Part shown: positions 10,129-63,007 of the stretch, in pieces
How positions within the stretch are numbered: position 1 is the stretch's first letter
Layout: each line of letters opens with the position of its first letter
Source of the DNA: Methanobacteriales archaeon HGW-Methanobacteriales-1
GTDB taxonomy: Archaea; Methanobacteriota; Methanobacteria; Methanobacteriales; Methanobacteriaceae
NCBI GenBank assembly: GCA_002839705.1
Contig: PGYO01000010.1
Coordinates: 1 to 64,000 of the forward strand
Reading direction: 5' to 3'
Length of the DNA: 64,000 bases
Position numbers and translations under genes: made by a program
Notes under the pieces: generated by a model
Told to the model about the DNA's origin: nothing
Databases searched by the model: none
What the model saw: the letters and a program-made list of their open reading frames with translations, nothing else

Positions 10129-12636
10129 ATGATTATTTTAAAAAAGAAAAAGAAAATTCTGGAAGTATTTCCAATTGGAAGTCCTAGAGGGGCCTTAAAT
10201 TCCCGAAGGAAACCAGAATTTCAGGGTTATATTAAATTCAAGAAAACGCCTAATGGTCCTAAAATCCATAAATTCGTGATAAAAAAGGATAAAGAAGAGT
10301 TGTTACCTCCTGCTGAGGCAGTGAAACTCTTTAGAAAACAGGCCGTGTTTTTAATTGATAGAGATCCTGAAGTGGAAGAATTTTTGGATTCACTGAATAT
10401 AAAGTACAGAAGAACCATTATATGCAACCATTGTACCATGGAAGGATACATTACTATTATTAATTCCAAATCATCTTTTAATTATCATGAACAGAAAATT
10501 TGCCGACTCTGTGCCGAAGAAGTAATTAAAAGAGAATTAAATTACCGGGGCATAGATAAAAAGACTTTTAAAAATTTTAAAAGAATTTTAGATAAAACGG
10601 GAGACCTTGATCAGGTTTTAAAAGTTCTTGATCCTAGTTTTGATCCTCTTAAAAATTCCAATCTCACTCTTTTTGATAGAATTTCTTCCTCTAAAGATAA
10701 TGATATTCCTAAATTAAGTGTGGACCAGCTGGACATCCCTCAAAAGTTTAAAACTATTCTAAAATCTCATGGAAGTAAAAATCTGCTTCCGGTGCAGTAT
10801 AAGGCTCTGGAAAATGGGGTTTTAGATGGAAAAAGCTTGATGGTGGTATCGGCCACTGCCAGTGGAAAAACTCTTATTGGGGAGTTGGCAGGCATACCAC
10901 GGGCCATGCAGGGCCAAAAATTCATTTTTTTAACACCACTGGTGGCACTGGCCAACCAGAAGTATCGGGACTTTAAAAAGAGGTATTCTAAATTAGGCCT
11001 TAAAACTTCTATTAAAGTGGGAATGAGTAGAATAAGGGCTAGAGAAGAAATTAAACTTCCGGACGATGATATTAAACAGGCAGATATTATAGTGGCCACC
11101 TATGAAGGTATAGACTTCATGTTAAGGTCAGGCAAAGCCCACCTCCTGGATGGTTTAGGAACTGTGGTTATTGATGAAATTCACACCCTGGACGATGAAG
11201 AACGTGGCCCTAGATTGAATGGTCTTATTAAACGACTTAAAAATATTTATCCTGATTTACAGCTTATTGGTTTATCGGCAACAGTTCAGAATCCTCAAGA
11301 AATAGCAGGATCATTTGGATTAAAATTGGTGGAATACGATCGACGCCCAGTACCTCTGGAAAGGCATCTGGTGTTCACTCGCAGTGAAGAGGAAAAAAGG
11401 AGTTTAATTGCTAGATTTTCTCGCAGAGAATTTAAAAATAAGTCTGAAAAAGGTTTCCATGGCCAGACCATAGTTTTCACAAATTCTCGTAGAAAAACAC
11501 ATTTAATTGCAGATTACCTGACTCGGCACCAGGTTAAATCTTCGCCATATCACGCCGGACTTTCTTATGCTCAAAAAGAAAGAATAGAAAAGGCATTTAT
11601 CAAACAGGAACTTTCAGCTGTGGTTACCACTGCGGCCCTAGCTGCAGGGGTGGATTTTCCAGCATCTCAGGTTATTTTTGAAACTCTGACCATGGGAAAT
11701 AAATGGATCAACCCCAATGAATTTTCTCAGATGTTAGGCCGGGCAGGAAGGCCTTCCTATCACGACCGAGGAATTGTTTATCTTTTACCAGAGATTGGTT
11801 TGAGTTATGATGATGAGAGTGAAGAGTTGATGGCCCTGGAACTTTTGGAAAGTGATGTAGATCCAGTCCACGTCAATTACTCTGAGGAAGATACTTTAGA
11901 ACAAATTTTAGCAGACATATGTTCGGGATCAGTTTCAACCAATGCCGCACTTTCTAAAATGTATAATGGAATGAATATTCCAGTGGATGCTCTTAATGGC
12001 CTCAGCACCATAGAATCTTATGGATTCGTTCAAGAAGATCATGGAAATATACGACCTACCGATTATGGGAAAGCAGTTTCCATGTCTTTCTTGCAGTCAG
12101 AAGAAGCAGAATACATTAAAAAACATTTAAAGAAAAAATCTAAAAAAGACCCCTTACAAATTGCTCTTTCATTGGAACCTTTTGAGAGTGTATATTTATC
12201 AAGCAGGCTTCATAAACAACTAAGCAGGGCCTTAAAAGCCAATTTTTCCACCAGACTATTTGCTGATTCTACGCTGGATATTATTTCCACTGGAGAAAAC
12301 TTAGTTAAACTGGATCCTAATTTTCAACAGGCTGTTTTAAATATTCAGGTGGACTTTTTATCATGCAAATGCAAGGATCGACCGTTTTGCTACTGCTTAC
12401 AACGGGAATTATCATCTTATATTGTAAAGCAGCGTTTAAAAAAGCAAGATCCAGTGGACATCACTAAGAAACTTCTCAAAAAATACCAGATACATGCCTA
12501 TCCTGGAGATATATTTTCCTGGTTGGATGCTCTAGTAAGGATGCTGGAGGCCACTAAAAGAATTGCTATGGCTCTACATTATCATAAAAAGGCCAAAGAA
12601 TGTGTTAGAATTATTAGGGCCATTGAAAAGGGATAA
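10129..12636 (+). CDS. Archaeal Ski2-like DEAD/DEAH helicase with N-terminal zinc-binding region
   Basis: 835 residues. The N-terminal 190 residues are family-specific, with paired CxxC motifs (C99/C102 and C125/C128) likely to bind zinc. Helicase motifs: I ATASGKT (242-248), II DEIH (349-352), III LSAT, then TTAALAAGVDFPASQVI and VI QMLGRAGRPSYHDRG. The C-terminus carries a cysteine cluster (CKCKDRPFCYC, about residue 750) and a helical domain. It resembles Hel308/Ski2 superfamily 2 enzymes but is a distinct archaeal family. Expected to unwind DNA or RNA using ATP. It stands alone and converges on arfB. Confidence 0.85.
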   Translation: MIILKKKKKILEVFPIGSPRGALNSRRKPEFQGYIKFKKTPNGPKIHKFVIKKDKEELLPPAEAVKLFRKQAVFLIDRDPEVEEFLDSLNIKYRRTIICNHCTMEGYITIINSKSSFNYHEQKICRLCAEEVIKRELNYRGIDKKTFKNFKRILDKTGDLDQVLKVLDPSFDPLKNSNLTLFDRISSSKDNDIPKLSVDQLDIPQKFKTILKSHGSKNLLPVQYKALENGVLDGKSLMVVSATASGKTLIGELAGIPRAMQGQKFIFLTPLVALANQKYRDFKKRYSKLGLKTSIKVGMSRIRAREEIKLPDDDIKQADIIVATYEGIDFMLRSGKAHLLDGLGTVVIDEIHTLDDEERGPRLNGLIKRLKNIYPDLQLIGLSATVQNPQEIAGSFGLKLVEYDRRPVPLERHLVFTRSEEEKRSLIARFSRREFKNKSEKGFHGQTIVFTNSRRKTHLIADYLTRHQVKSSPYHAGLSYAQKERIEKAFIKQELSAVVTTAALAAGVDFPASQVIFETLTMGNKWINPNEFSQMLGRAGRPSYHDRGIVYLLPEIGLSYDDESEELMALELLESDVDPVHVNYSEEDTLEQILADICSGSVSTNAALSKMYNGMNIPVDALNGLSTIESYGFVQEDHGNIRPTDYGKAVSMSFLQSEEAEYIKKHLKKKSKKDPLQIALSLEPFESVYLSSRLHKQLSRALKANFSTRLFADSTLDIISTGENLVKLDPNFQQAVLNIQVDFLSCKCKDRPFCYCLQRELSSYIVKQRLKKQDPVDITKKLLKKYQIHAYPGDIFSWLDALVRMLEATKRIAMALHYHKKAKECVRIIRAIEKG

Positions 12637-52764: not shown

Positions 52765-53994
52765 TTACTGCCTATTTTCTTTCTTAATGAAGTAATTCAA
52801 TTGATCATTAATAACATCACTAAGACTGTACTCTATTTTACAACCTAATTTTTCTATTTTACTGGTATCGGCCAGGAGAATAGGTACTTCAGCTGGTCTA
52901 AATCGTTCTGAGTCAAACTGAATCTTAATATCTTCTTTATCAGTTTCTACAATTATTCCTTTATCACTTAGACTGTATTCTAATTGATCTTCTAACATCA
53001 ATTGATCGACCTTGGTTTTATCAAAATTAATGCCGAATATTTCCGAGTTATTGATTTCGGTGGGGTTTTCAATGATCTTCTCATTATTCATGGTTTTTAT
53101 TCTCTTAACTTCCCATCCGGCCTGTTCCAGGCCTAATAAAATGTAACTCAAAACAGAATTGGTTCGCATGGATCCTTGATTATATACTTCACCAGAGACT
53201 CCTTTCTCAGCCAGTAACAGGTAACCCTTTACTATATCCTTTACATGGGACCAGTCACGGAAAGCATTAATATTTCCAATACTGATGTGATCTATTTCAT
53301 TGAACTTTAATTTCATAATCTGGTTAGTGATAACCGAGGTAACAAACATTAATCCTCGGCCTGCACCTTCGTGATTGAAAGCTCTCGATACTACAGTATT
53401 TAATCCATAGGAGTGATAATAGTTTCTCATTAAGAAGTCACCATATACTTTGGATACGGCATAGGGAGACATGGGCCTTAGAGGGTTGGTTTCTTTAATG
53501 GGAACTTCAGGTACGTTTTCTACATCCGGGAATATGGTACCGTACTCTTTCTGGGCCTCTTCATAATGTTTTTGAGAAGATATTACCAGTCCGTACTCTT
53601 CGCTGGATCCGGCAAATATTATTTTAGCATGATTATTTTTTATTCGCACCGCTTCTAAGAGGTTAGAAGTACCCATACAATTTATTTGCTGAGTTTCCAT
53701 TGAATTTTCAAATGATCTCGCCACAAATGATTGGGCCGCTAAGTGGAATATGTAATCTGGATTAGATTGATCAATGGCCTGAGCAATAGATGATATATCG
53801 GTTAAATCTCCCTCAATTAAGGTCAGAGATTCGTCTATGCAATGGTCACAGAGGTTTTTTGATTTCGTACCATCCGCCCTTCTGCGTATAAGGCCGTAAA
53901 CATTTGCTTTCTGGTCTATAAGTTCTCTGGCCAAGTAGGAACCTACAAATCCTGTGGCCCCGGTGATGAGTATATTTTTATTGGTGAAGTTCAT
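52765..53994 (-). CDS. gmd: GDP-mannose 4,6-dehydratase-like SDR
   Basis: 409 residues, extended SDR: NAD(P)-binding ILITGATGFVGSYLARELIDQ, IFHLAAQSFVARSFENSMETQQINCMGTSNLLEA, SSEEYG, and catalytic MSPYAVSKVYGDFLMRNYYHSYGL, then SRAFNHEGAGRGLMFVTSVI and NAFRDWSHVKDIVKGYLLL. These are typical of GDP-mannose 4,6-dehydratase, which makes GDP-4-keto-6-deoxymannose for surface sugars. Longer than the usual 340-370 residues because of an insert near 285-340. AAGTGATTTC precedes the ATG. A decayed second copy lies at 62568-62790. Confidence 0.85.
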   Translation of the reverse strand: MNFTNKNILITGATGFVGSYLARELIDQKANVYGLIRRRADGTKSKNLCDHCIDESLTLIEGDLTDISSIAQAIDQSNPDYIFHLAAQSFVARSFENSMETQQINCMGTSNLLEAVRIKNNHAKIIFAGSSEEYGLVISSQKHYEEAQKEYGTIFPDVENVPEVPIKETNPLRPMSPYAVSKVYGDFLMRNYYHSYGLNTVVSRAFNHEGAGRGLMFVTSVITNQIMKLKFNEIDHISIGNINAFRDWSHVKDIVKGYLLLAEKGVSGEVYNQGSMRTNSVLSYILLGLEQAGWEVKRIKTMNNEKIIENPTEINNSEIFGINFDKTKVDQLMLEDQLEYSLSDKGIIVETDKEDIKIQFDSERFRPAEVPILLADTSKIEKLGCKIEYSLSDVINDQLNYFIKKENRQ

Positions 53995-54120
53995 GAAATC
54001 ACTTGATAATGGTTAAAAAGTATAATTATATTATTCTACTTTTGTTATATTATTTAAATATTATTTGTTGATATTTAGTTTCTTTTTAGTAAATTTTATT
54101 TTTTTATATGGATAGAAATT

Positions 54121-54196
54121 ATGGTACTATAATTAGAACAAATTATTTATATTATAATTTCTATAATTAGAATCTATGGTACTAAATTTAGAACAA
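54121..54196 (+). repeat. Duplicated 5' end of the nucleotidyltransferase gene
   Basis: 54121-54141 and 54176-54196 are the same 21-bp start-of-gene sequence (beginning ATGGTACTA, ending AGAACAA) with two or three changes. The first copy runs into TAA after three codons; the second is the functional start. It is a 55-bp tandem duplication or a pair of operator sites. Confidence 0.6.
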
Positions 54197-55012
54197 TTTA
54201 ATCTGGAGGATTTATCTGCCAGGAATACTACTAAAATTCTTCGCTATATGATACTACACCCTTATCTGACCTGGGGATTAAGTGAACTATCCTCTGAAAT
54301 CAAGGTATCTAAATCAAATGTTTTCAGGATATTAAAGGTTTTATTAGAAAATAACTTGATTATAGAATATAAATCTGGGAGAAAAAAACTTTTCAGAATA
54401 AATAGTGAACTTGATCTGGTCCAAGAGCTGTGGAAACTGTACATGATTGAGAAAAAATACAATCTACCTCTCCAGTTTAAGAATGCCATTGATTTATTTT
54501 ATAATCAATTCAAAGACGAAATAGATGTCTTCATACTTTCTGGGAGTCTTTCTAATGAAAAAAGTGATATAGATATATGCATAGTATCCTCAGAGGATTT
54601 GCATATTAATAGATTCGATTTTTTACCATATCGTGTGGAGATTCATCAGTATACCTGGAGTGACTTAGAAAATTTCACAGATTTTGTAGTACTAGATGCT
54701 ATGATGAATGGTATAGTCTATAAAGGTGATATCTTTAATTTAATTTCGAATATGAGATCATTTTCTAAGGATTACTTAGTATATCGACTTGAAAAGGCCA
54801 AAGAATTTAATTTAAAATCCAAATCTTATAATTCTGAGGCCCAGGAGCAATTTAAACAATTAGCTGAAATCACCATTGGTGAGCTTAAATCCATAATTGG
54901 CAAAGGCACCACCACTCCTAAGAAACTGATTGAAATGGAGGACATTGATTTGGAAATTGAAAATCTAGAGAATAAACTTTCCACAGAAGGTGAGAAAATA
55001 TGGCTGATTTAG
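54176..55012 (+). CDS. Nucleotidyltransferase with N-terminal HTH domain
   Basis: 278 residues. Residues 15-80 are a winged helix (LRYMILHPYLTWGLSELSSEIKVSKSNVFRILKVLLENNLIIEY). Residues 105-180 are a minimal DNA polymerase-beta-type nucleotidyltransferase with FILSGSLSNEKSDIDICIVSS (GSx-DxD). The C-terminal 80 residues are helical. Such archaeal HTH-NT proteins resemble MNT components of HEPN/MNT toxin-antitoxin modules, where the NT AMPylates the HEPN toxin. Here no HEPN gene follows; only a 30-codon remnant overlaps its 3' end. Confidence 0.75.
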   Translation: MVLNLEQFNLEDLSARNTTKILRYMILHPYLTWGLSELSSEIKVSKSNVFRILKVLLENNLIIEYKSGRKKLFRINSELDLVQELWKLYMIEKKYNLPLQFKNAIDLFYNQFKDEIDVFILSGSLSNEKSDIDICIVSSEDLHINRFDFLPYRVEIHQYTWSDLENFTDFVVLDAMMNGIVYKGDIFNLISNMRSFSKDYLVYRLEKAKEFNLKSKSYNSEAQEQFKQLAEITIGELKSIIGKGTTTPKKLIEMEDIDLEIENLENKLSTEGEKIWLI

Positions 55013-55092
55013 ACGCAGTAAACAATACGTTTTCGGAAGTTATGGTATCTGAAGGTCATTCCCGTAACTTAAGTTCATTACTTTTTATATAA
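55000..55092 (+). pseudogene. Truncated ORF overlapping the nucleotidyltransferase 3' end
   Basis: An ATG at 55000 with AGGTGAG upstream opens a second frame that overlaps the end of the nucleotidyltransferase gene and reads MADLDAVNNTFSEVMVSEGH before stopping after 30 codons. The good RBS and tight overlap suggest this was the start of a real partner gene whose body has been lost. The family cannot be told from this piece. Confidence 0.4.
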
Positions 55093-55159
55093 ACGAACAA
55101 TGCTATGGGCCAGGTTGAAGACGGTTGGTAATTTTTAATTAAAATAGTAGTTGATATTT

Positions 55160-55984
55160 ATGAGTGTTAAAAATGCAATAAAATTATTTGAAAGTAGAGA
55201 AATTCGTACACTTTGGAATGATGAGGAAGAAGAATGGTACTTTTCAGTTATAGATGTTATTGGTGTACTATCTGATAGTAAAAATCCTCCAGCTTATTGG
55301 AGGAAATTAAAACAACGTTTAACAGAAGAAGGTAATGAAACCGTGACAAATTGTCACAGGTTGAAGATGCTGGCTGCTGATGGTAAAATGCGTTTAACTG
55401 ATGTAGCAAGTACTAAACAATTATTAAGATTAATTCAATCTATCCCGTCCCCTAATGCCGAACCTTTTAAAATGTGGCTTGCTGAAGTTGGTAAAGAAAG
55501 ACTTGATGAAATAGCAGATCCTGAATTAGCCATTGATAGAGCGGTAAACACATATAAATCTAAAGGTTATTCTGATGCATGGATTACTCAAAGGTTAAAA
55601 TCTATTGAGATGCGTAAAGAATTAACTAATGAGTGGAAACGAACCGGGATTGAAGGAGTAGAATATGCTATTTTGACTGATGAAATAACCAAGGCCTGGG
55701 CAGAAATGGATACTAAAGAATATAAAAAACTGAAAGGTTTGAAAAAAGAAAGCCTCAGAGATAATATGAGTAATCTTGAACTTGTTTTGAATATGTTAGC
55801 AGAAGCATCAACCACTGAAATATCTAAAAATATTAATCCAGAAGGTTTTGAAGAGAGTAAGGATGTTGCTCAAAGAGGTGGGAAAATTGCTGGTGATGCT
55901 CGCAAAGATATAGAAAAACAATCCGGTAAATCAGTTATAACCTCTCGTAATGCTAAATCTCCTGAACTTTTAGATGATAAATAA
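55160..55984 (+). CDS. BRO-family (Bro-N) protein
   Basis: 274 residues from the ATG at 55160. The N-terminal 110 residues are a Bro-N domain (IKLFESREIRTLWNDEEEEWYFSVIDVIGVLSDSKNPPAYWRKLKQRL, later DVASTKQLLRLIQSIPSPNAEPFKMWLAEVGKERLDEI), a DNA-binding module of phage antirepressors and baculovirus BRO proteins. The rest is helical and ends with a basic KIAGDARKDIEKQSGKSVITSRNAK segment. It is common in mobile and variable regions of methanogen genomes. Possible decayed relatives flank it. Confidence 0.85.
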   Translation: MSVKNAIKLFESREIRTLWNDEEEEWYFSVIDVIGVLSDSKNPPAYWRKLKQRLTEEGNETVTNCHRLKMLAADGKMRLTDVASTKQLLRLIQSIPSPNAEPFKMWLAEVGKERLDEIADPELAIDRAVNTYKSKGYSDAWITQRLKSIEMRKELTNEWKRTGIEGVEYAILTDEITKAWAEMDTKEYKKLKGLKKESLRDNMSNLELVLNMLAEASTTEISKNINPEGFEESKDVAQRGGKIAGDARKDIEKQSGKSVITSRNAKSPELLDDK

Positions 55985-56039
55985 AATATCTTTTTTTAGT
56001 AAGGTAATTGGTATTCAACTTTTATTTTTGAATAACAAT

Positions 56040-56090
56040 AGAACTTATGGTACCGTTACAAATTGTAACAGGTTGAACGCTTGATTATAA
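56040..56090 (+). pseudogene. Remnant of a second BRO-like gene
   Basis: The sequence reads GTVTNCNRLNA then stop, matching the ETVTNCHRLK segment of the BRO protein just upstream, including the same odd-length palindrome (GTTACAAATTGTAAC here, GTGACAAATTGTCAC at 55342). No start or remaining domain is present, so it looks like a decayed tandem copy. Confidence 0.35.
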
Positions 56091-56130
56091 TGGATAATAT
56101 TTAAATATAAAAATAATCATAATTATTTAT

Positions 56131-56739
56131 ATGAATTTAATACAAATTGAAGCTCATATAAATCAAGGCCAGAACCTGTTATTCTATAAAAATGATGTTC
56201 ATGATATTTATAAACAAATAAATTCAAATTTTCTGTGTGTATTCTTTAATGAGCCTACTCCTATTAAACATAGGTTGATTGAATGTATTGAAACTGTGGT
56301 TAATCAAACAGAGCCTTCATTAAGTCGTTTAACTTTACCAGAGTTGATTAAAATTCTTATGGTGAAGTTGAATTCCAAGAAATTAATAATACTTTTTAAT
56401 AATTTTCATATATTAACTCGTAGATTGGTGGCCACCCTACAGGAGTTGAATAGGTATAAAAATATTATTTTTATATGTAGCTTTGATAAGGACTTTAAGA
56501 GTGAGGTCTATGGTTTTTTCACCACATTTCATATTATGAACGTGGATCAGTATAAACTAGAAACCGGAAAAGATGAAATTAATATATCTTATGCCGTGTA
56601 CTTCTGCCTGGGCCTTATTTGTTTTTTCATTTATCTTAAAACTGCATCCTCTGCATATATAGGTGCCATGTTAATTGGTGGTGCCTGGTTTGGCCTGGTC
56701 ATATTTAGAACATTCGTCTACACCGGAGGTAGGGTATGA
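56131..56739 (+). CDS. ATPase-like protein lacking a P-loop, with C-terminal membrane hairpin
   Basis: 202 residues. The N-terminal 145 residues resemble the second half of a STAND/AAA ATPase: FLCVFFNEPT, then KKLIILFNNFHILTRRLVATLQELNRYKNIIFICSFDKDF, a hydrophobic Walker-B-like strand with Asn where Asp is expected. No GxxxxGK[ST] Walker A is present. Two membrane helices follow (residues 152-195). It overlaps the next gene by four bases (ATGA), so the two are translationally coupled. I do not recognise the family. Confidence 0.55.
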   Translation: MNLIQIEAHINQGQNLLFYKNDVHDIYKQINSNFLCVFFNEPTPIKHRLIECIETVVNQTEPSLSRLTLPELIKILMVKLNSKKLIILFNNFHILTRRLVATLQELNRYKNIIFICSFDKDFKSEVYGFFTTFHIMNVDQYKLETGKDEINISYAVYFCLGLICFFIYLKTASSAYIGAMLIGGAWFGLVIFRTFVYTGGRV

Positions 56740-57356
56740 GAAATTATACTCATATAATAGGCGCTGTATTCTTTTTCCTTATACTGGCCTATCTACTGAA
56801 TATTACTAATCCCTTTTTAGGATTGTTCTGTGCGGGGTGGATATCGGTATTTCCGAATATTATGGATAAACTAACTGGTAAGCATCGGGGATGGGGTCAC
56901 TCATTCTTATGGTTGATTCCTATGGCCCTGGTGGTACTTTACAGTCCAATAATTGCATTGGCCTTAATGGTGGGTTTTTTATCCCATCTATTACTGGATA
57001 GTTTCACGGTTTATGGTGCTCCGGTTTTATATCCCTTTAAAAAATCGGGTTTTGTTTGTTTAAATAAAAAAAGAAGATTTAAAACTGGTTCTAATTCTGA
57101 TAAAGCTGTGTTTATTTTTCTTTTATTTTTAGTGGTTCCCATTATATTGTTCACCACCGGCTTAGGGAATGTGTTACTGGTGGATGTGGCCTTTGCCGTC
57201 GGTAATCAAACCAGTAACAATACCAGTACTCCACAGAACAGTAATATTTATTTGAGCTTTAAACTGGATGAGGCCTGTAATAAGAACATTACCTTGGAGA
57301 AGATCAATGAGAATAAGACTAGTATTGTGGTTCAGGATATTAATAATACTTCATGA
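56736..57356 (+). CDS. DUF457/YdjM-type membrane-bound metal-dependent hydrolase
   Basis: 206 residues. Four or five membrane helices with FPNIMDKLTGKHRGWGHSFLWL and FLSHLLLDSFTVYGAPVLYPF, the conserved Asp/His pattern of the LexA-binding, inner-membrane-bound hydrolase family (DUF457). An extracellular C-terminal tail is sequon-rich (NQTSNNTSTPQNSN, NKTSIVVQDINNTS). Coupled to the ATPase-like gene by a 4-bp overlap. Its last 45 bp are duplicated at about 60421-60468, as part of the large repeat. Confidence 0.65.
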   Translation: MRNYTHIIGAVFFFLILAYLLNITNPFLGLFCAGWISVFPNIMDKLTGKHRGWGHSFLWLIPMALVVLYSPIIALALMVGFLSHLLLDSFTVYGAPVLYPFKKSGFVCLNKKRRFKTGSNSDKAVFIFLLFLVVPIILFTTGLGNVLLVDVAFAVGNQTSNNTSTPQNSNIYLSFKLDEACNKNITLEKINENKTSIVVQDINNTS

Positions 57357-57377
57357 AAATAAAAAAATATTTATTTT

Positions 57378-57788
57378 TCATATGAATCTTTTTTGTAGTT
57401 CATGGGAGGCTAGTTCGTTTATATTCACTCCTTTTTGAATAGCGGTGTGGTAATCTATGGATAGTTTTTGATTGTCTTTGCTTATTTGCATGGCATTGGG
57501 TCTGATGAATATCCATGATGTTTGGTTTATGAATTTTATGGCCACCCAGGGTTCTGCTTTGAATTTCCAGGCAAACCTTATGAGATTTTTTATTTGGGCG
57601 GTTCTGATTATTATTCTATTGTTGGTGGTTATTTTTACTTCTATGACAAATACTGACTCTCCATCTCCAGCCAGTAGGTCTGGATTTCTTACGGAAGATC
57701 CGGGTAATCTGCAGGCTTCATAATCTGCTTTTTTTAGTTCTCCTACCAGTTCATATTCGTGTTTTATTCCAAAGTCTTTGATTCTCAT
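57378..57788 (-). CDS. hjc: Holliday junction resolvase Hjc-like (copy 1)
   Basis: 136 residues from the ATG at 57788; an ATG two codons upstream is possible. Hjc/RecB-type nuclease core: GIKHEYELVGELKKADYEACRLPGSSVRNPDLLAGDGESVFVIEVKIT, with Glu, Asp and the ExK catalytic triad. Archaeal Hjc cuts four-way junctions. About 96% identical to the copy at 60486-60896 (five differences in 136). It is divergent from a remnant of a secreted-protein gene, sharing one palindromic TATA region (57835-57850). Confidence 0.88.
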   Translation of the reverse strand: MRIKDFGIKHEYELVGELKKADYEACRLPGSSVRNPDLLAGDGESVFVIEVKITTNNRIIIRTAQIKNLIRFAWKFKAEPWVAIKFINQTSWIFIRPNAMQISKDNQKLSIDYHTAIQKGVNINELASHELQKRFI

Positions 57789-57882
57789 TTTCATCTTTTT
57801 CCTGAATTTTATTACTAATAGTAGTGTGTAGTAACACTTATATATGTATTACCATTATAGTAAATAGTATAACTTATGGGAG

Positions 57883-57975
57883 GTGGAAAATCTTAGTGCT
57901 ATAACAGCTAAAAATGGTTCTTACACTTATGTGTAAAAAATGCGACAAAAACAAGACGTTATATTGCAGGTTTAA
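57883..57975 (+). pseudogene. Internally deleted copy of the secreted beta-propeller-like gene
   Basis: It starts with the same GGGAGGTG/GTG context as the intact gene at 60994. Four codons (MENL) are joined in frame to SAITAKNGSYTYV, the counterpart of GAIKAKNGSYYLML near the intact protein's C-terminus, then a stop. About 460 bp are missing, and the rest before the terminator is out of frame. Confidence 0.75.
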
Positions 57976-58009
57976 TTGATACTTCCCCTTATCAATTAAA
58001 CTTTTTTTT
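57970..58009 (+). terminator. Terminator of the deleted secreted gene
   Basis: GTTTAATTGATA / TATCAATTAAAC, a perfect 12-bp stem with an 8-nt loop, followed by eight T. The ancestral stop codon lies inside the stem. The same structure ends the intact copy. Confidence 0.75.
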
Positions 58010-58149
58010 AAACTATTAAATTGCTAGGTGAGAAAAAATTAAAGTATGCTTGAAATATGATGCTAAAACTTATAATAATCTCCTTTTAGCTAGTAGAAAT
58101 ATAGACCGGTTTAATATAAAAAATAAGGAAGGAAAGTTCCCCAAACAAC

Positions 58150-58267
58150 AAATTCCAAATTCCTCAAATCACTTAGGGGTTATATATATCTGCATTATTA
58201 TGGCCTGAGAGTTCCCACTAGGATGTGTACAAATGGGCCCCTATACATTCTGAGGAATTTGGAATTT
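58150..58267. mobile_element. Small inverted-repeat (MITE-like) element
   Basis: Perfect 17-bp terminal inverted repeats (58150-58166, AAATTCCAAATTCCTCA; 58251-58267) enclose 84 bp, and a second matched pair TAGGGG/CCCCTA lies exactly seven bases inside each arm. There is no coding capacity. A third copy of the 30-bp arm occurs alone at 59061-59090. It may be a non-autonomous transposon or a strong RNA hairpin. The surrounding 57976-59215 stretch has no other convincing gene. Confidence 0.5.
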
Positions 58268-58490
58268 ACATAATAAAAGAAAATAAACAATTCAAAATCA
58301 TAAATAACCATAGGGAAAATCAACTAGAAAAAAAGAGATTTTCAAATAGCTCTAAAACCATGGCAAAGTAAGGAAATTCAATATAGAAGTCTAAGTCAAA
58401 ATATCGATCCTGGCTGAGCTGGTGAAAAAACATACTATGAAATTAATTAAAGATCTAAAAGTCAGTGAAATGGATCTATTTCAATCCTTA

Positions 58491-58868
58491 AAAAAAGAGT
58501 ATATAATGATTTTTAATAATTATTATATAATTCCACGTGAGTATCTTGAAAAGGAGGATTATATAGTATATACCTATATAGTATATAATAATGATTTTGT
58601 AATACTTTTTTTACAGTATATAAAAAATCTTTAAATAACCTATATATAATAATATATAATAATAAAATAATAAAAATATATTATTAATTTTACTATATAA
58701 TAAAAAACAAAAAATCCTATATAAAACCTGAAAAAGAAACTGATCAGTTTATATGGTGTTTAGCATGGTTTTTCATCTCTGTTGATTTTTCAAAACATCG
58801 GTATGAACTTCTCTGGCCATGGGTTTGTAAATGATTTTTTTTAACATTCCTTTATATTATTTGAAGCT
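58491..58868. repeat. Duplicated tail, left copy
   Basis: About 380 bp clearly homologous to 62126-62502, with small indels. The best-kept parts are the block rich in TATATAG/TATATACC words and the stretch around 58752-58850. It includes a small ORF (58506-58634, 42 codons, MIFNNYYIIPREYLEKEDYI) whose counterpart in the other copy is also open. Confidence 0.8.
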
Positions 58869-59060
58869 TGAATCTCCTTGAATTGTTTTCAAAATGAATT
58901 ATTAATTTTTTAATGGCCATATTTGAATTTTGTATTTTATGTTATATTGCCTTAAATTCGGAATTTAGATGATTGGAATAATATAAAAATCTGCTTTTAC
59001 TCATCGCAATTACGGTGATGGTTTTTAATGCTTAAAATGATTCAGAGTTCTTCTGGAAAC

Positions 59061-59090
59061 AAATTCTAAATTCCTCAGAATACATAGGGG
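59061..59090 (+). repeat. Third copy of the 30-bp inverted-repeat arm
   Basis: AAATTCTAAATTCCTCA, seven bases, TAGGGG: one mismatch to the arms of the element at 58150-58267 and identical spacing. It stands 125 bp before the glf start and has no inverted partner nearby. Confidence 0.65.
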
Positions 59091-59215
59091 ATATGTAATG
59101 CAACCTTAACTTTTTTAAATTCATAAGTAATATGTTTTAATTAAATTATATGAATCACTGATGACCATGTTTATTTATCTTTCAAAAAAGGAATAAATTA
59201 CTGGAGATAAAAAAA

Positions 59216-60373
59216 ATGTTTGATTATATAATTGTTGGAGCGGGACTTGCGGGATCAGTGATAGCAGAGAGAATATCTAATGAGTTAGATAAGAAAGTTT
59301 TATTAATTGAAAAAAGGAACCATATTGGGGGTAATTGTTACGATTATACGGATTCAAATGGTATTCAGGTACATAAGTATGGCCCCCATGTTTTCAGGAC
59401 TGATTTAGAACAGGTATATGAATACTTATCTCAATTCACTGATTGGAATATATATCAGTACGAGGTTTTAGGGTCAATTGATGGTAATAAAGTGCCTATT
59501 CCTTTTAATTTAAATACATTGTATGAATTATTACCTGAAAATCTTGCTGAAAAATTAGAAAAAAAATTAATTACACATTTTGGTTATGATGTAAAAGTTC
59601 CTATTTTAGAACTTAGAAAAAAAGAGGATAAGGATCTTAAATTTTTAGCTGATTTTATTTATGAAAAGGTATTTTTAAATTATACCATAAAACAATGGGG
59701 ATTTAAGCCAGAGGATCTAGATCCATCTGTAACTGGAAGAGTACCAGTATTTATATCCCGAGATAATAGATATTTCCAAGAAAAGTACCAAGGAATACCT
59801 AAAAATGGTTATACCAAACTTTTTGAAAGAATGTTGTATAATCCAAATATCAAATTAATGTTAAATACGGATTATAATGAAATTATTGACATTAATCAAG
59901 ATGGGATTTATGCTTTTGATAATAAATATGATGGGAAAATTATTTTTACTGGTGAAATAGATGAATTTTTCAAGTATAGTCATGGAAAATTACCTTACAG
60001 AACTCTTAATTTTAAGTTTGAAACCATGGAACAAGAATATTTCCAGGAAGTGGCCACGGTAAATTATCCTAATAATCATAATTTCACAAGAATCACTGAA
60101 TTTAAACATTTTAATCCTATAAAAAGTAGTAAAACGACTATTGCTAAGGAATATTCTTACTTATGTAATAAGAAAATTAAAGGAAAAGATACACCTTATT
60201 ACCCTATTCCTCGTGACGAAAATCAGGAACTTTATGAAAAATATAAAAATGAAGCTAAATTACTGGATAATGTTATATTCGTGGGAAGACTTGCAGAATA
60301 TAAATATTATAATATGGATAATGTGATAGAAAGTGCTTTAAATGTATTTAAGGAGAAAATTATTAAGGAATAA
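59216..60373 (+). CDS. glf: UDP-galactopyranose mutase
   Basis: 385 residues. FAD-binding start MFDYIIVGAGLAGSVIAERISNELDKKVLLIEKRNHIGGNCYDY, then HKYGPHVFRTD, NYTIKQWG, VPVFISRDNRYFQEKYQGIPKNGYTKLFE, and the C-terminal VIFVGRLAEYKYYNMDNVIESAL. It converts UDP-galactopyranose to UDP-galactofuranose for surface glycans, downstream of GalE. It is bracketed by the two copies of the hjc duplication. Confidence 0.95.
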   Translation: MFDYIIVGAGLAGSVIAERISNELDKKVLLIEKRNHIGGNCYDYTDSNGIQVHKYGPHVFRTDLEQVYEYLSQFTDWNIYQYEVLGSIDGNKVPIPFNLNTLYELLPENLAEKLEKKLITHFGYDVKVPILELRKKEDKDLKFLADFIYEKVFLNYTIKQWGFKPEDLDPSVTGRVPVFISRDNRYFQEKYQGIPKNGYTKLFERMLYNPNIKLMLNTDYNEIIDINQDGIYAFDNKYDGKIIFTGEIDEFFKYSHGKLPYRTLNFKFETMEQEYFQEVATVNYPNNHNFTRITEFKHFNPIKSSKTTIAKEYSYLCNKKIKGKDTPYYPIPRDENQELYEKYKNEAKLLDNVIFVGRLAEYKYYNMDNVIESALNVFKEKIIKE

Positions 60374-60401
60374 ATAATATTCTCTTTTTAAATGGATTAT
60401 A

Positions 60402-60468
60402 GATGTTAATAGTACTTCAGGAGAATAAGACTAGTATTGTGGTAATGGATGTTAATAGTACTTCCTGA
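60402..60468 (+). pseudogene. Duplicated 3' fragment of the DUF457 gene
   Basis: Reads ENKTSIVVMDVNSTS then stop, matching the last residues of the protein at 56736-57356 (ENKTSIVVQDINNTS). Within it a 17-bp word, GATGTTAATAGTACTTC, occurs twice (60402 and 60448). It marks the left boundary of the right-hand duplication and shows that the duplicated block began inside the DUF457 gene. Confidence 0.75.
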
Positions 60469-60485
60469 AAAAAAATATTAATTTT

Positions 60486-60896
60486 TCATATGAATCTTTT
60501 TTGTAGTTGGTTGGAGACTAGTTCGTTTATATTCACTCCTTTTTGAATAGCGGTGTTATAATCTATGGATAGCTTTTGATTGTCTTTACTTATTTGCATG
60601 GCATTGGGCCTGATAAATATCCATGATGTTTGGTTTATGAATTTTAGGGCCACCCATGGTTCTGCTTTGAATTTCCAGGCAAACCTTATGAGATTTTTTA
60701 TTTGGGCGGTTCTGATTATTATTCTATTATTAGTGGTTATTTTTACTTCTATGACAAATACTGACTCTCCATCTCCAGCCAGTAGGTCTGGATTTCTTAC
60801 TGAAGATCCAGGTAATCTACAGGCTTCATAATCTGCTTTTTTTAGTTCTCCTACCAGTTCATATTCGTGTTTTATTCCAAAATCTTTGATTCTCAT
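60486..60896 (-). CDS. hjc: Holliday junction resolvase Hjc-like (copy 2)
   Basis: 136 residues, differing from copy 1 at five positions (for example Ala to Leu-neighbour WVALKF, IDYNTAI, NELVSNQLQ). All catalytic residues are kept, so both copies should be active. GGAGAAT precedes the ATG. It is divergent from the intact secreted gene at 60994 across a palindromic TATA region (60945-60960) that may serve both. Confidence 0.88.
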   Translation of the reverse strand: MRIKDFGIKHEYELVGELKKADYEACRLPGSSVRNPDLLAGDGESVFVIEVKITTNNRIIIRTAQIKNLIRFAWKFKAEPWVALKFINQTSWIFIRPNAMQISKDNQKLSIDYNTAIQKGVNINELVSNQLQKRFI

Positions 60897-60993
60897 TTTC
60901 TTTCAGATTCTCCTAAGTTTATTACTTACTACTGTATTAGTAGTAACACTTATATATGTATTACTATTATAATAAATAGTATCACTCAGGGAG

Positions 60994-61533
60994 GTGAAAA
61001 ATCTGAACAAGACAAAAGTATTAGGACTGTTTATCATCATTTTATGTCTAATATGCGTTACGGCTCAGCCAATAAGCGCTGCCAAGACATACAATGATTA
61101 TTACTGGAAAGGCAGTTACTTAAGTGCTGATGATAATGGTATTTCTTATCATTACCTCAAAAATGGTGCAGCAGTCACCAGATGGACCAGAGACATACCA
61201 GCCACAACCGTATCCATTGACCACAAATTAATTTATGTCCTGGATAACCATAACGTACTGATAGCACTTAATAAAACCAATGGAAAAGATATTTGGACTT
61301 TAGATCTCTTTGAATCGTATAGTAAGTCCCAATTTGCTACCAAGAACTATTTGCTTCTCTCCAGTCCTGAAAATGCGGCCATGATTAAATTAACTCCTAC
61401 CCACTTAGTCTGGACCAAGAGTTACAATATGGCTAATCTAGTGTTTTATGGTGCCATAAAAGCAAAAAATGGTTCTTACTACTTGATGTTAAAGAGTGCA
61501 AGTAAAACGAGATTCTATAAATTGCAAGTTTAA
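60994..61533 (+). CDS. Secreted beta-propeller-like (PQQ-type repeat) protein
   Basis: 179 residues with a signal peptide (residues 8-29, FIIILCLICVTAQPISA). Mature repeats such as HKLIYVLDNHNVLIALNKTNGKDIWTLDL resemble PQQ/YncE-type propeller blades, but only about three blades are present, so it is short for the family. The GTG start abuts GGGAGG, leaving no spacing; a CTG three codons on would be better spaced, though the deleted paralogue keeps the same GTG frame. The stop codon lies in the terminator stem. Confidence 0.65.
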   Translation: MKNLNKTKVLGLFIIILCLICVTAQPISAAKTYNDYYWKGSYLSADDNGISYHYLKNGAAVTRWTRDIPATTVSIDHKLIYVLDNHNVLIALNKTNGKDIWTLDLFESYSKSQFATKNYLLLSSPENAAMIKLTPTHLVWTKSYNMANLVFYGAIKAKNGSYYLMLKSASKTRFYKLQV

Positions 61534-61568
61534 TTGATACCACCCCTTATCAATTAAACTTATTTTTT
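61527..61568 (+). terminator. Terminator overlapping the stop codon of the secreted gene
   Basis: AGTTTAATTGATA / TATCAATTAAACT, perfect 13-bp stem, 8-nt loop, followed by TATTTTTTTA. The stop codon TAA (61531-61533) is inside the 5' arm. The same structure occurs in the left duplicate. Confidence 0.8.
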
Positions 61569-61667
61569 TAACAAATGGGGTTTCATGAGTTGTGGGGGTA
61601 TTCCGGGGTTTATTTTAGTTAGGGAATAAATAAATTTATCTTGATTTTAATAGGGAGGTTATTATTC

Positions 61668-62141
61668 ATGCGGAAACCTAAAAAGGAGCTTATTTCAGCA
61701 GTTTGTCATCCAAGGTCTAAGCGTATTATTCGAAAAAGTAAATATACTTATGGTGATGCTTTGGATTTTTTTGCCAGAGTCTTAACCAATAGATCTACGG
61801 GTTTGAAATCAATTATTGATGTGACTGAGGTTGAAATTCGTGAGTTGAAGTTACACATTGAAAAACTTCAAGCAGATTTATATCATAAAGAAAGTTATCG
61901 TGAGAAATTGTTAGAAGAAATTAAATCTAATAATAATTATCCAGATCTGGATATTGAAAAAGCTATTGATGATTCGGTTAATTCCATAATTAAAATTGCA
62001 AATAGATTTGATTGTAATCCATTAGATGTAAACGATTTCACAGGTTCAGATACTATAAATTTCCATGCAAAAAAGTGTAATATTCCAGTCATTGAATTAG
62101 AACAACGACTAGAACAAGAAAATTCAAAAGAGGGTATATAA
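61668..62141 (+). CDS. Coiled-coil protein of unknown function
   Basis: 157 residues from the ATG at 61668 (GGGAGGTTATTATTC upstream). A basic N-terminus (MRKPKKELISAVCHPRSKRIIRKSKYTYGDALDFFARVL) is followed by a coiled coil (residues 55-95) and a mixed C-terminus. A phage or plasmid-like DNA-associated protein is possible, but no family is recognised. Absent from the left duplicate. Its stop overlaps the ATG of the small ORF at 62141. Confidence 0.55.
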   Translation: MRKPKKELISAVCHPRSKRIIRKSKYTYGDALDFFARVLTNRSTGLKSIIDVTEVEIRELKLHIEKLQADLYHKESYREKLLEEIKSNNNYPDLDIEKAIDDSVNSIIKIANRFDCNPLDVNDFTGSDTINFHAKKCNIPVIELEQRLEQENSKEGI

Positions 62142-62502
62142 TGATTTCCAATAATTATTATATACTCCCCCGAAAGTATCCTGGAAAACAAAGTTATATA
62201 GTATATACCTATATAATATATAAAGATTTTTTAGTAATACTTATTTTACAGTATATAAAAAATCTTAAAATAACCTATATTTAATAATAAAATAATAAAT
62301 ATATATTATTAATTTACTATATAATAAAATAGAAAAAATCATATATAAAACATGAAAAAAGATACGGATCAGTTTATATGGTGTTTATCATTGTTTTTCA
62401 TCTCTGTTGATTTTTCAGACATCGGTATGAACTTCTCTGGCCATGGTTTTGTAAATGATTTTTTTAACATTCCTTTTTTTTATTTCTATAATTTGAAGTA
62501 GA
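62126..62502. repeat. Duplicated tail, right copy
   Basis: Counterpart of 58491-58868. Stretches of more than 30 identical bases occur around 62362-62440. It follows the intact coiled-coil gene here, while in the left copy it follows the MITE-like element. Confidence 0.8.
62141..62284 (+). CDS. Small conserved ORF in the duplicated tail (uncertain)
   Basis: 47 codons starting at a TAATG overlap with the preceding gene: MISNNYYILPRKYPGKQSYI, then hydrophobic LVILILQYIKNL. The left duplicate has the same frame open (58506-58634) with conservative differences, which weakly supports a real small peptide. The sequence is very AT-rich, so chance conservation of recently duplicated DNA is the main alternative. 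Confidence 0.3.
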   Translation: MISNNYYILPRKYPGKQSYIVYTYIIYKDFLVILILQYIKNLKITYI

Positions 62503-62567
62503 AAGTATTAGAATTATTTTATCCATAAATATTATTTTATTATATAATTAAATTACTTTAATCAATC

Positions 62568-62790
62568 TGGCCACAAATTTTGTCCTAAGTTAATATGTAA
62601 TTTGGATTGATCAATAGTATGAGCAATAGATGAAATGTCGCTAAATCTCCTTATCAATGTCATAGTTTCATCTATGCAGGTCAAAGAAGTTTGATGTAGT
62701 TCAGTTAGCACTTCATATTATAAAATTAAACATTTGCTTTTGGCATAATAGTTCTTTATCGTATAATTATATTATTGAACTTTTATTGTG
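62568..62790 (-). pseudogene. Decayed fragment of a second gmd gene
   Basis: Matches gmd over the region 53722-53925 (ATTGATCAAT, GAGCAATAGATGA, TTCATCTATGCA, AAACATTTGCTTT in the same order), then skips the first 50 or so coding bases and continues into homology with the gmd promoter (GTATAATTATATTATT). Stops and indels make it non-functional. The rest of 62503-63007 holds AT-rich sequence only. Confidence 0.75.
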
Positions 62791-63007
62791 AATATTTTAA
62801 TTTCATTTAATTATCCTATTTTTCTAAATACATCAACTATAATTTTTTTTTATTTATTTTAATTATCATTAAATTACTATTGTGTCTGTTTTTCTATTAT
62901 GATATTTTGAAATAGACGGGGGTTATATTATATATGTTAGTATCTTGAATATTTAAAAATAAATATAATTGGTATTTATTGGCTTATACATACTGAAGAT
63001 GATGATT

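Follow-up and report, generated by a model that had tools for sequence, protein, structure and literature searches.

Unequal, partly decayed repeats around glf in a Methanobacteriales archaeon probably derive from a plasmid and integrative-element module

The genome of Methanobacteriales archaeon HGW-Methanobacteriales-1 (2.57 Mb in 27 contigs) has a single copy of glf, the gene for UDP-galactopyranose mutase (59216-60373, + strand; PF03275, E = 3e-76). It lies in the first 64,000 nucleotides of contig PGYO01000010.1 (hereafter the window), between two repeats that we call block A (56083-58868, + strand) and block B (60399-62485, + strand). A first-pass annotation of the window had pointed out that these repeats both carry a gene for a Hjc-type resolvase and lie in direct orientation around glf, and this was borne out; whole-genome BLAST gives E values of 6e-238 and 1e-120, far beyond chance. 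The segment that comprises the end of a YdjM gene, hjc and a divergent promoter (57309-57893 in A and 60421-61004 in B) is 91-92% identical in nucleotide sequence, the longest perfect stretches common to the two blocks are 71, 68 and 62 nt, and their AT-rich tails (58488-58862 and 62123-62485) are 86% identical over 376 columns. The blocks are larger and more unequal than first described, since A begins at 56083 and not at 57304, and a third copy, elsewhere in the genome, lay out of sight of a reader of the window.

Block A holds the whole left half of what we show below to be a multi-gene module: ORF202 (56131-56739, + strand) and, overlapping it by 4 nt, a gene of the YdjM membrane metal-dependent hydrolase family (56736-57356, + strand; PF04307, E = 3e-14). 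The latter is the "DUF457" gene whose shared tail the earlier annotation had correctly recognized, and it is complete in A. They are followed by hjc on the opposite strand (57378-57794; 138 aa; PF01870, E = 8e-21) and a divergent promoter-like region (57795-57890) with a 22-bp imperfect palindrome centred on TATATA; this palindromic promoter, GTAACACTTATATATGTATTAC, is common to A, B and the third copy. The right half of A is degenerate. Only the final ~115 bp survive of a gene for a secreted PQQ-like protein (Sec; 57896-58009, + strand, 82% identical to 61451-61567 in B and including a terminator-like hairpin), ORF166 has been lost, and in place of the Sec body and ORF166 there are 478 bp (58010-58487) that have no counterpart in B and are also found in the sister species G002. 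An AT-rich tail that is rich in inverted repeats (58488-58868) completes the block.

Block B is a right half only. It consists of a YdjM tail, hjc (60486-60896, - strand; 136 aa; PF01870, E = 1.3e-20), an intact 179-aa Sec gene (60994-61533, + strand), an intact 166-aa ORF166 (61641-62141, + strand) and an AT-rich tail with many inverted repeats (62142-62485). The palindromic promoter and terminator that had been noted are present in both blocks, the hairpin at 61518-61567 (+ strand) after Sec being shared with 57960-58009; likewise, the "secreted gene or its remnant" is intact in B and a remnant in A, and the neighbouring ORF166 had gone unmentioned. The left edge of B (60399) falls where 46 bp of the YdjM tail are duplicated in tandem, a duplication that G002 shares and A lacks. 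Because B retains Sec, ORF166 and this duplication, it is not a plain copy of A. Neither block is a transposon or a cassette with terminal repeats, as boundary alignments show no inverted ends, target duplications or att repeats; integration at tRNA genes was likewise rejected, as there is no tRNA in the loci scanned, and positions 50-64 kb of the window have no Rfam match to an RNA element. The AT-rich tail is a possible plasmid origin or partition-type site.

A complete module is present at a third place in the same genome (contig C1, 557264-560662, or 9265-12663 of the extracted locus L009). There the order is ORF202, YdjM, hjc in reverse, Sec, ORF166 and the AT-rich tail, about 3.4 kb in all, and the nucleotide identity to the blocks is 86% (84.7% for A against L009 9265-11093, and 86.4% over 2136 columns for B against L009 10498-12612). 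No glycan genes adjoin this copy. Its neighbours encode a DUF1156 methylase and a DUF499 ATPase that match PADLOC HmaB and HmaC and that form, with a small protein, an HmaB/HmaC-like defence locus at L009 2111-8143; near A there are just a BRO-N/PDC-S13-type and a nucleotidyltransferase ORF. Some 3 kb downstream of the third copy is a decayed tyrosine integrase gene of which a C-terminal piece is left, interrupted by a stop codon; contig C18 has an N-terminal remnant from this integrase family. On that contig the remnant (1398-1624 of locus L011) is ~9.5 kb from an intact 411-aa tyrosine recombinase gene (11124-12200), a pair that could belong to a split-integrase provirus or element. The third copy is absent from the corresponding site of G002, where the flanks are recognizable with some rearrangement and enclose other restriction/helicase-type genes, a different restriction-type system at 121-133 kb of that genome's contig C1.

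Purifying selection acts on all of the module's genes. For Sec, a PQQ-type beta-propeller-like protein with a signal-like N terminus, dN/dS is 0.18 against the third copy, and the PF13360 match is weak (E = 0.0022 in B and 5.6e-5 for the third copy). Synonymous divergence between the loci is very different for the two halves of the module, with dS of 0.63-1.17 for ORF202-YdjM (A and the third copy) and 0.18-0.26 for hjc, Sec and ORF166 (Fisher p = 7e-7 for hjc alone and 2e-15 for all three). Since the left pair is so much more diverged synonymously than the other three genes, it is probable that the loci have exchanged the right half of the module.

ORF202 belongs to a family without Pfam annotation. 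Its structure model, built from a two-sequence alignment, has a mean pLDDT of 73 and resembles the ORC2 AAA+ domain: the 20 best PDB matches are all Orc2-type chains of ORC complexes (E from 4e-6 to 8e-4), with Cdc6/Orc1 and other AAA+ proteins next, and two family members give weak matches to PF04084 (RecA-like ORC2) at E of ~0.1. Two hydrophobic helices make up the last 50 residues. As a lead from this model, ORF202 may be a membrane-anchored, ATPase-dead ORC2-like protein, which would fit a role of the module in replication or segregation. The ORF166 product appears to have a long coiled coil behind a small head; the head is modelled with low confidence and has no useful fold match, and its sequence would allow DNA binding of a ribbon-helix-helix-like kind. 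Searches with ORF166 found no match in the phage and plasmid collections, and only two MAGs (G001 and G013) in a scan of the named relatives' contigs.

Homologues of ORF202 occur in the plasmid collection only on pFV1, on pFZ1 and its near-identical relatives such as pCaT2, on pRMAS01 and on plasmid II of Methanobacterium congolense. All four circular plasmids have YdjM and Hjc-like genes near ORF202 and carry restriction or methylation genes in addition. The cluster of ORF202, YdjM and an Hjc-like gene is of the pFV1/pFZ1 type. The near-identity of pFZ1 and pCaT2 has been noted before (PMC3757452), and that paper cites pFV1 and pFZ1 as having been described as modular plasmids with different restriction-modification systems (its ref. 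7, Noelling et al. 1992). In pFV1 and pFZ1 (NC_001336 and NC_001337) an ORF202 homologue is followed by a YdjM homologue, a secreted protein and an Hjc-like gene, beside restriction-modification cargo; unlike the module, they have no ORF166, their Hjc-like protein is without catalytic residues, the secreted gene of pFZ1 encodes a DUF11 protein, and pFZ1 has a Cdc6/Orc1 initiator, while the blocks are chromosomal and truncated. On M. congolense plasmid II (NZ_LT607757), 4.5 kb suffice for ORF202, YdjM, a gene for a secreted PQQ-type protein and an Hjc gene whose product is 49% identical to block Hjc and keeps the catalytic motif. This plasmid also carries a restriction endonuclease, but gene order and orientation differ, there is an extra transglutaminase gene, and ORF166 has no match. 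A 912-aa DUF11-like surface protein is encoded beside the G002 block (L060 6568-9306), and is related to the pFV1/pFZ1 DUF11 proteins located between YdjM and the Hjc-like gene.

Integrated relatives complete this picture. In three chromosomes that we assign to Methanothermobacter (this label and that of psiM2 are our reading, from plasmid matches among others), ORF202-YdjM, an Hjc-like gene, cargo and ORF166 are followed by a gene for an intact 396-aa tyrosine integrase (L057, L058 and L059). ORF202-YdjM, the Hjc-like gene and ORF166 lie within 4-11 kb there, and the cargo is a methylase with a partner (restriction-modification) or an OLD-type AAA protein; the differences from our module are the intact integrase beside ORF166, the degenerate Hjc-like protein and this cargo. 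ORF166 relatives adjoin integrase in these elements and in psiM2-like proviruses, although in the latter the ORF166 relative near the integrase end is distant (just 27-35% identity) and no other module genes are present. CRISPR-like repeat arrays lie near module or integrase copies in three genomes (L059 18517-19001, L126 1891-4464 and L138 10074-11752).

These findings are consistent with the idea that both repeats are chromosomal copies, unequal and in part decayed, of a single module from a family of Methanobacteriales plasmid and integrative-element backbones, and that they now sit as passive direct repeats around glf; we consider this reading probable, though well short of certain. We call the module derived from a plasmid, rather than a plasmid, because no ORF in the 50-64 kb part of the window, in L009 or in L010 matches the Cdc6/Orc1-type initiator of pFZ1.

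Several observations weigh against this reading. No replication initiator and no integrase that is intact turned up at A or B, nor did att sites, target duplications or terminal repeats; tyrosine integrase is intact in Methanothermobacter, a C-terminal remnant is all that lies near the third copy, and A and B show none. The plasmid homologues are distant (~20-30% identity for ORF202), and the order and strand of their genes differ somewhat. Trees cannot root the blocks within the plasmid lineage, and the ORF202 and YdjM genes of the blocks cluster weakly with those of genome G015, where the pair adjoins glycan genes and is without hjc. Chromosomal ORF202-YdjM pairs also border glycan islands in Methanothermobacter, and four of the six loci viewed there have glf close by. 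ORF202 and YdjM at least may therefore be old residents of glycan islands.

The strongest rival builds on that possibility. It holds that an ancestral ORF202-YdjM pair of the glycan island was joined by hjc, Sec and ORF166, that local tandem duplication and decay then made A and B, and that plasmids took up the genes later. Besides the G015 and Methanothermobacter loci (L135, L168, L169 and L170 with glf a few kb away at most, and L171 and L172 with other glycan genes) and the weak clustering with G015 in both trees, it can draw on many Methanobrevibacter-like genomes with ORF202-YdjM beside sugar-nucleotide genes, and on the adjacency of glf to a nucleotide-sugar dehydratase/epimerase-type gene ("GMD", a name given from sequence) in G013, which suggests that glf is old in the island. 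It does not readily account for the full third copy, which lies in a defence island and which G002 does not have, for the travel of ORF166 and Hjc-like genes with plasmids and integrases, or for the features of B noted above, including the 46-bp duplication shared with G002, that keep B from being a copy of A. We regard it as distinctly the less likely account, perhaps one chance among several, and it lowers our confidence in a purely plasmid origin. In L168, L169, L170 and L135 the pair marks the edge of the surface-glycan island, and in some of them a gene for a ~1560-aa surface protein lies downstream.

The question whether the Hjc of the blocks drives any switching of glf leads to the protein itself. 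The Hjc proteins of A and B are 96.3% identical, in agreement with the 96% first estimated. They match solved archaeal Hjc structures at 6e-12 and share with archaeal Holliday-junction resolvases (PF01870; PDB 2wcz, 1gef and 1ob8) the fold family and the E, D, E-x-K motif; they differ in forming an element-borne branch, apart from the separate housekeeping Hjc on contig C5 of the same genome, to which block Hjc is 36% identical. The copies in A, B, C1 and G002 are under purifying selection (dN/dS 0.06-0.20, and 0.06-0.15 for copy A). In alignment, the catalytic positions are retained in block Hjc and in the M. congolense plasmid II protein, its sole plasmid match; in G013 an A replaces the second E, and the motif is gone from the Hjc-like proteins of pFV1, pFZ1, pRMAS01 and the integrated Methanothermobacter elements. 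Judged by these residues, nuclease activity does not appear to be a conserved feature of the module, and it is plausible that block Hjc is active in the element in mesophilic Methanobacterium. Block Hjc had no match in viral contigs, nor in the scan of the named relatives' contigs. Gene conversion between the two hjc copies alone was considered and set aside, as it is inseparable from coding constraint when G002's block is about as close to B.

The first-pass annotation had proposed a self-promoting cassette for glycan variation, in which block Hjc would resolve crossovers between the blocks and by this means cause glf to be lost or amplified. It is true that glf is flanked by direct repeats whose hjc is intact, G002 is in a one-block state with no glf and with the left flank of A and the right flank of B, and ORF202-YdjM pairs recur beside glf or other glycan genes in Methanothermobacter. 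Those glf-adjacent chromosomal pairs have no hjc, however, and the third full copy is in a defence locus. The plasmid homologues are annotated without glycan genes and the homologous gene sets belong to plasmids and integrated elements with restriction-modification cargo. The Hjc catalytic residues are lost in pFV1, pFZ1, pRMAS01 and the integrated relatives, a housekeeping Hjc is encoded separately, the arms are ~8% diverged and glf is single-copy. Neither self-promotion by Hjc nor a purpose of sugar variation is supported, and we hold the cassette to be very unlikely; nothing points to a dedicated sugar-switching device. Probably block Hjc works in plasmid maintenance or replication, is under selection for the element and has no dedicated part in the switching of glf.

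The region around the blocks probably records recombination. To the left of A is GMD (52765-53994, - strand), which is 93% identical in nucleotide sequence to that of G002 and 78% to that of G013 (L062). In G002, GMD is followed by a single block that is decayed like A (90.5% identical to A in one continuous match), and there is no B and no close glf match. The left flank of the G002 block is orthologous to that of A (GMD, 93%), and its right flank to that of B (81% over 129 columns, E = 2e-25); nothing there matches the right flank of A. Within the tail, G002 is A-like at 58480-58600 (25:3 informative sites) and B-like from ~58640 into the right flank (69:4), and a middle stretch resembles neither copy (44-61%). 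By these alignments the G002 arrangement would be either the product of a crossover between A and B or a precursor of the entry of glf and B; the direction is undecided, and the difference between the two genomes is not polarized, which also tempers the case for the plasmid-derived reading. The proposal that recombination would loop out glf is partly supported by the one-block state of G002, its matching flanks and the identical stretches between A and B, which are of sufficient length to recombine; glf itself is single-copy. In G013, GMD and glf are divergent neighbours, and the glf there, at a contig end, is near-identical (96% over 162 nt), so that glf presence differs between species. Recombination on module sequences over species time is likely; rapid present-day switching is unlikely, because the arms of A and B differ by ~8%.

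The tail of G002, A-like on the left and B-like on the right and into the flank, is also what would be expected if a circle with tail, hjc, Sec, ORF166 and possibly glf had recombined, Campbell fashion, with the tail of a single G002-like resident block, or of the reverse of that event. The middle stretch that matches neither copy does not fit, and the region upstream of glf (58897-59153) has homologues both in G013, between GMD and glf, and as a relic elsewhere in G002, so that glf could have come by another way than the circle. Integration of B in this way seems to us highly improbable.

Other features lie close by. Between GMD and block A, a segment missing from G002 (54108-56082) contains ORF278 (54176-55012, HTH/nucleotidyltransferase-like) and a BRO-N/anti-repressor-type ORF (55151-55984; phage family phrog_15286 at E = 1e-135 and candidate defence family PDC-S13 at E = 3e-135); this insertion (54176-55984) is possibly a defence or phage-regulatory pair. 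On the right flank of B (62484-62853), the first ~125 bp are those orthologous to the right flank of the G002 block, and 62565-62808 is the decayed 5' end and upstream region of a second GMD-like gene (72% identical to 53715-53926 and 81% to 54020-54066). Arms of 30 nt, AAATTCC...GGGG, lie in inverted and direct orientation at 58150-58179, 58238-58267 and 59061-59090; in this genome they are confined to this region, and they are near-identical to part of the glf upstream region. The AAATTCC...TAGGGG arms of the A-specific segment, at 58238 and 59068, have no further copies genome-wide, and the idea that they mark a local mobile repeat was rejected.

If the blocks are indeed derived from plasmids or integrative elements, the following course of events would be likely. 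The parent family usually carries defence genes, and integration of elements, together with homologous exchange, would have brought copies of its module into the glycan island. The two copies there would now be passive direct repeats, and the normal recombination machinery of the host could use them for deletion, insertion or conversion of the glf interval. In the sister species, the left flank of A joined to the right flank of B and the lack of glf would record one such exchange, in either direction, and the glf stretch has probably been swapped in or out across evolutionary time.

More speculatively, the maintenance module of this mobile-element family may consist of a membrane-anchored, ATPase-dead ORC2-like ORF202, the YdjM hydrolase and an Hjc specific to the element, and copies that have become lodged in surface-glycan and defence islands could offer portable homology for strain-to-strain exchange of glf and other cargo; we put this forward as a rather unlikely possibility. 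Through the analysis, a puzzling repeat in a locus for surface sugars is linked to a methanogen plasmid and integrative-element family known mainly from two thermophilic plasmids, core genes of which persist as chromosomal fragments in glycan and defence islands alike. The ORC2-like reading gives a testable function to the ORF202 family, and if the fragments act as shared homology, they would help to explain the exchange of cell-surface genes among methanogens.

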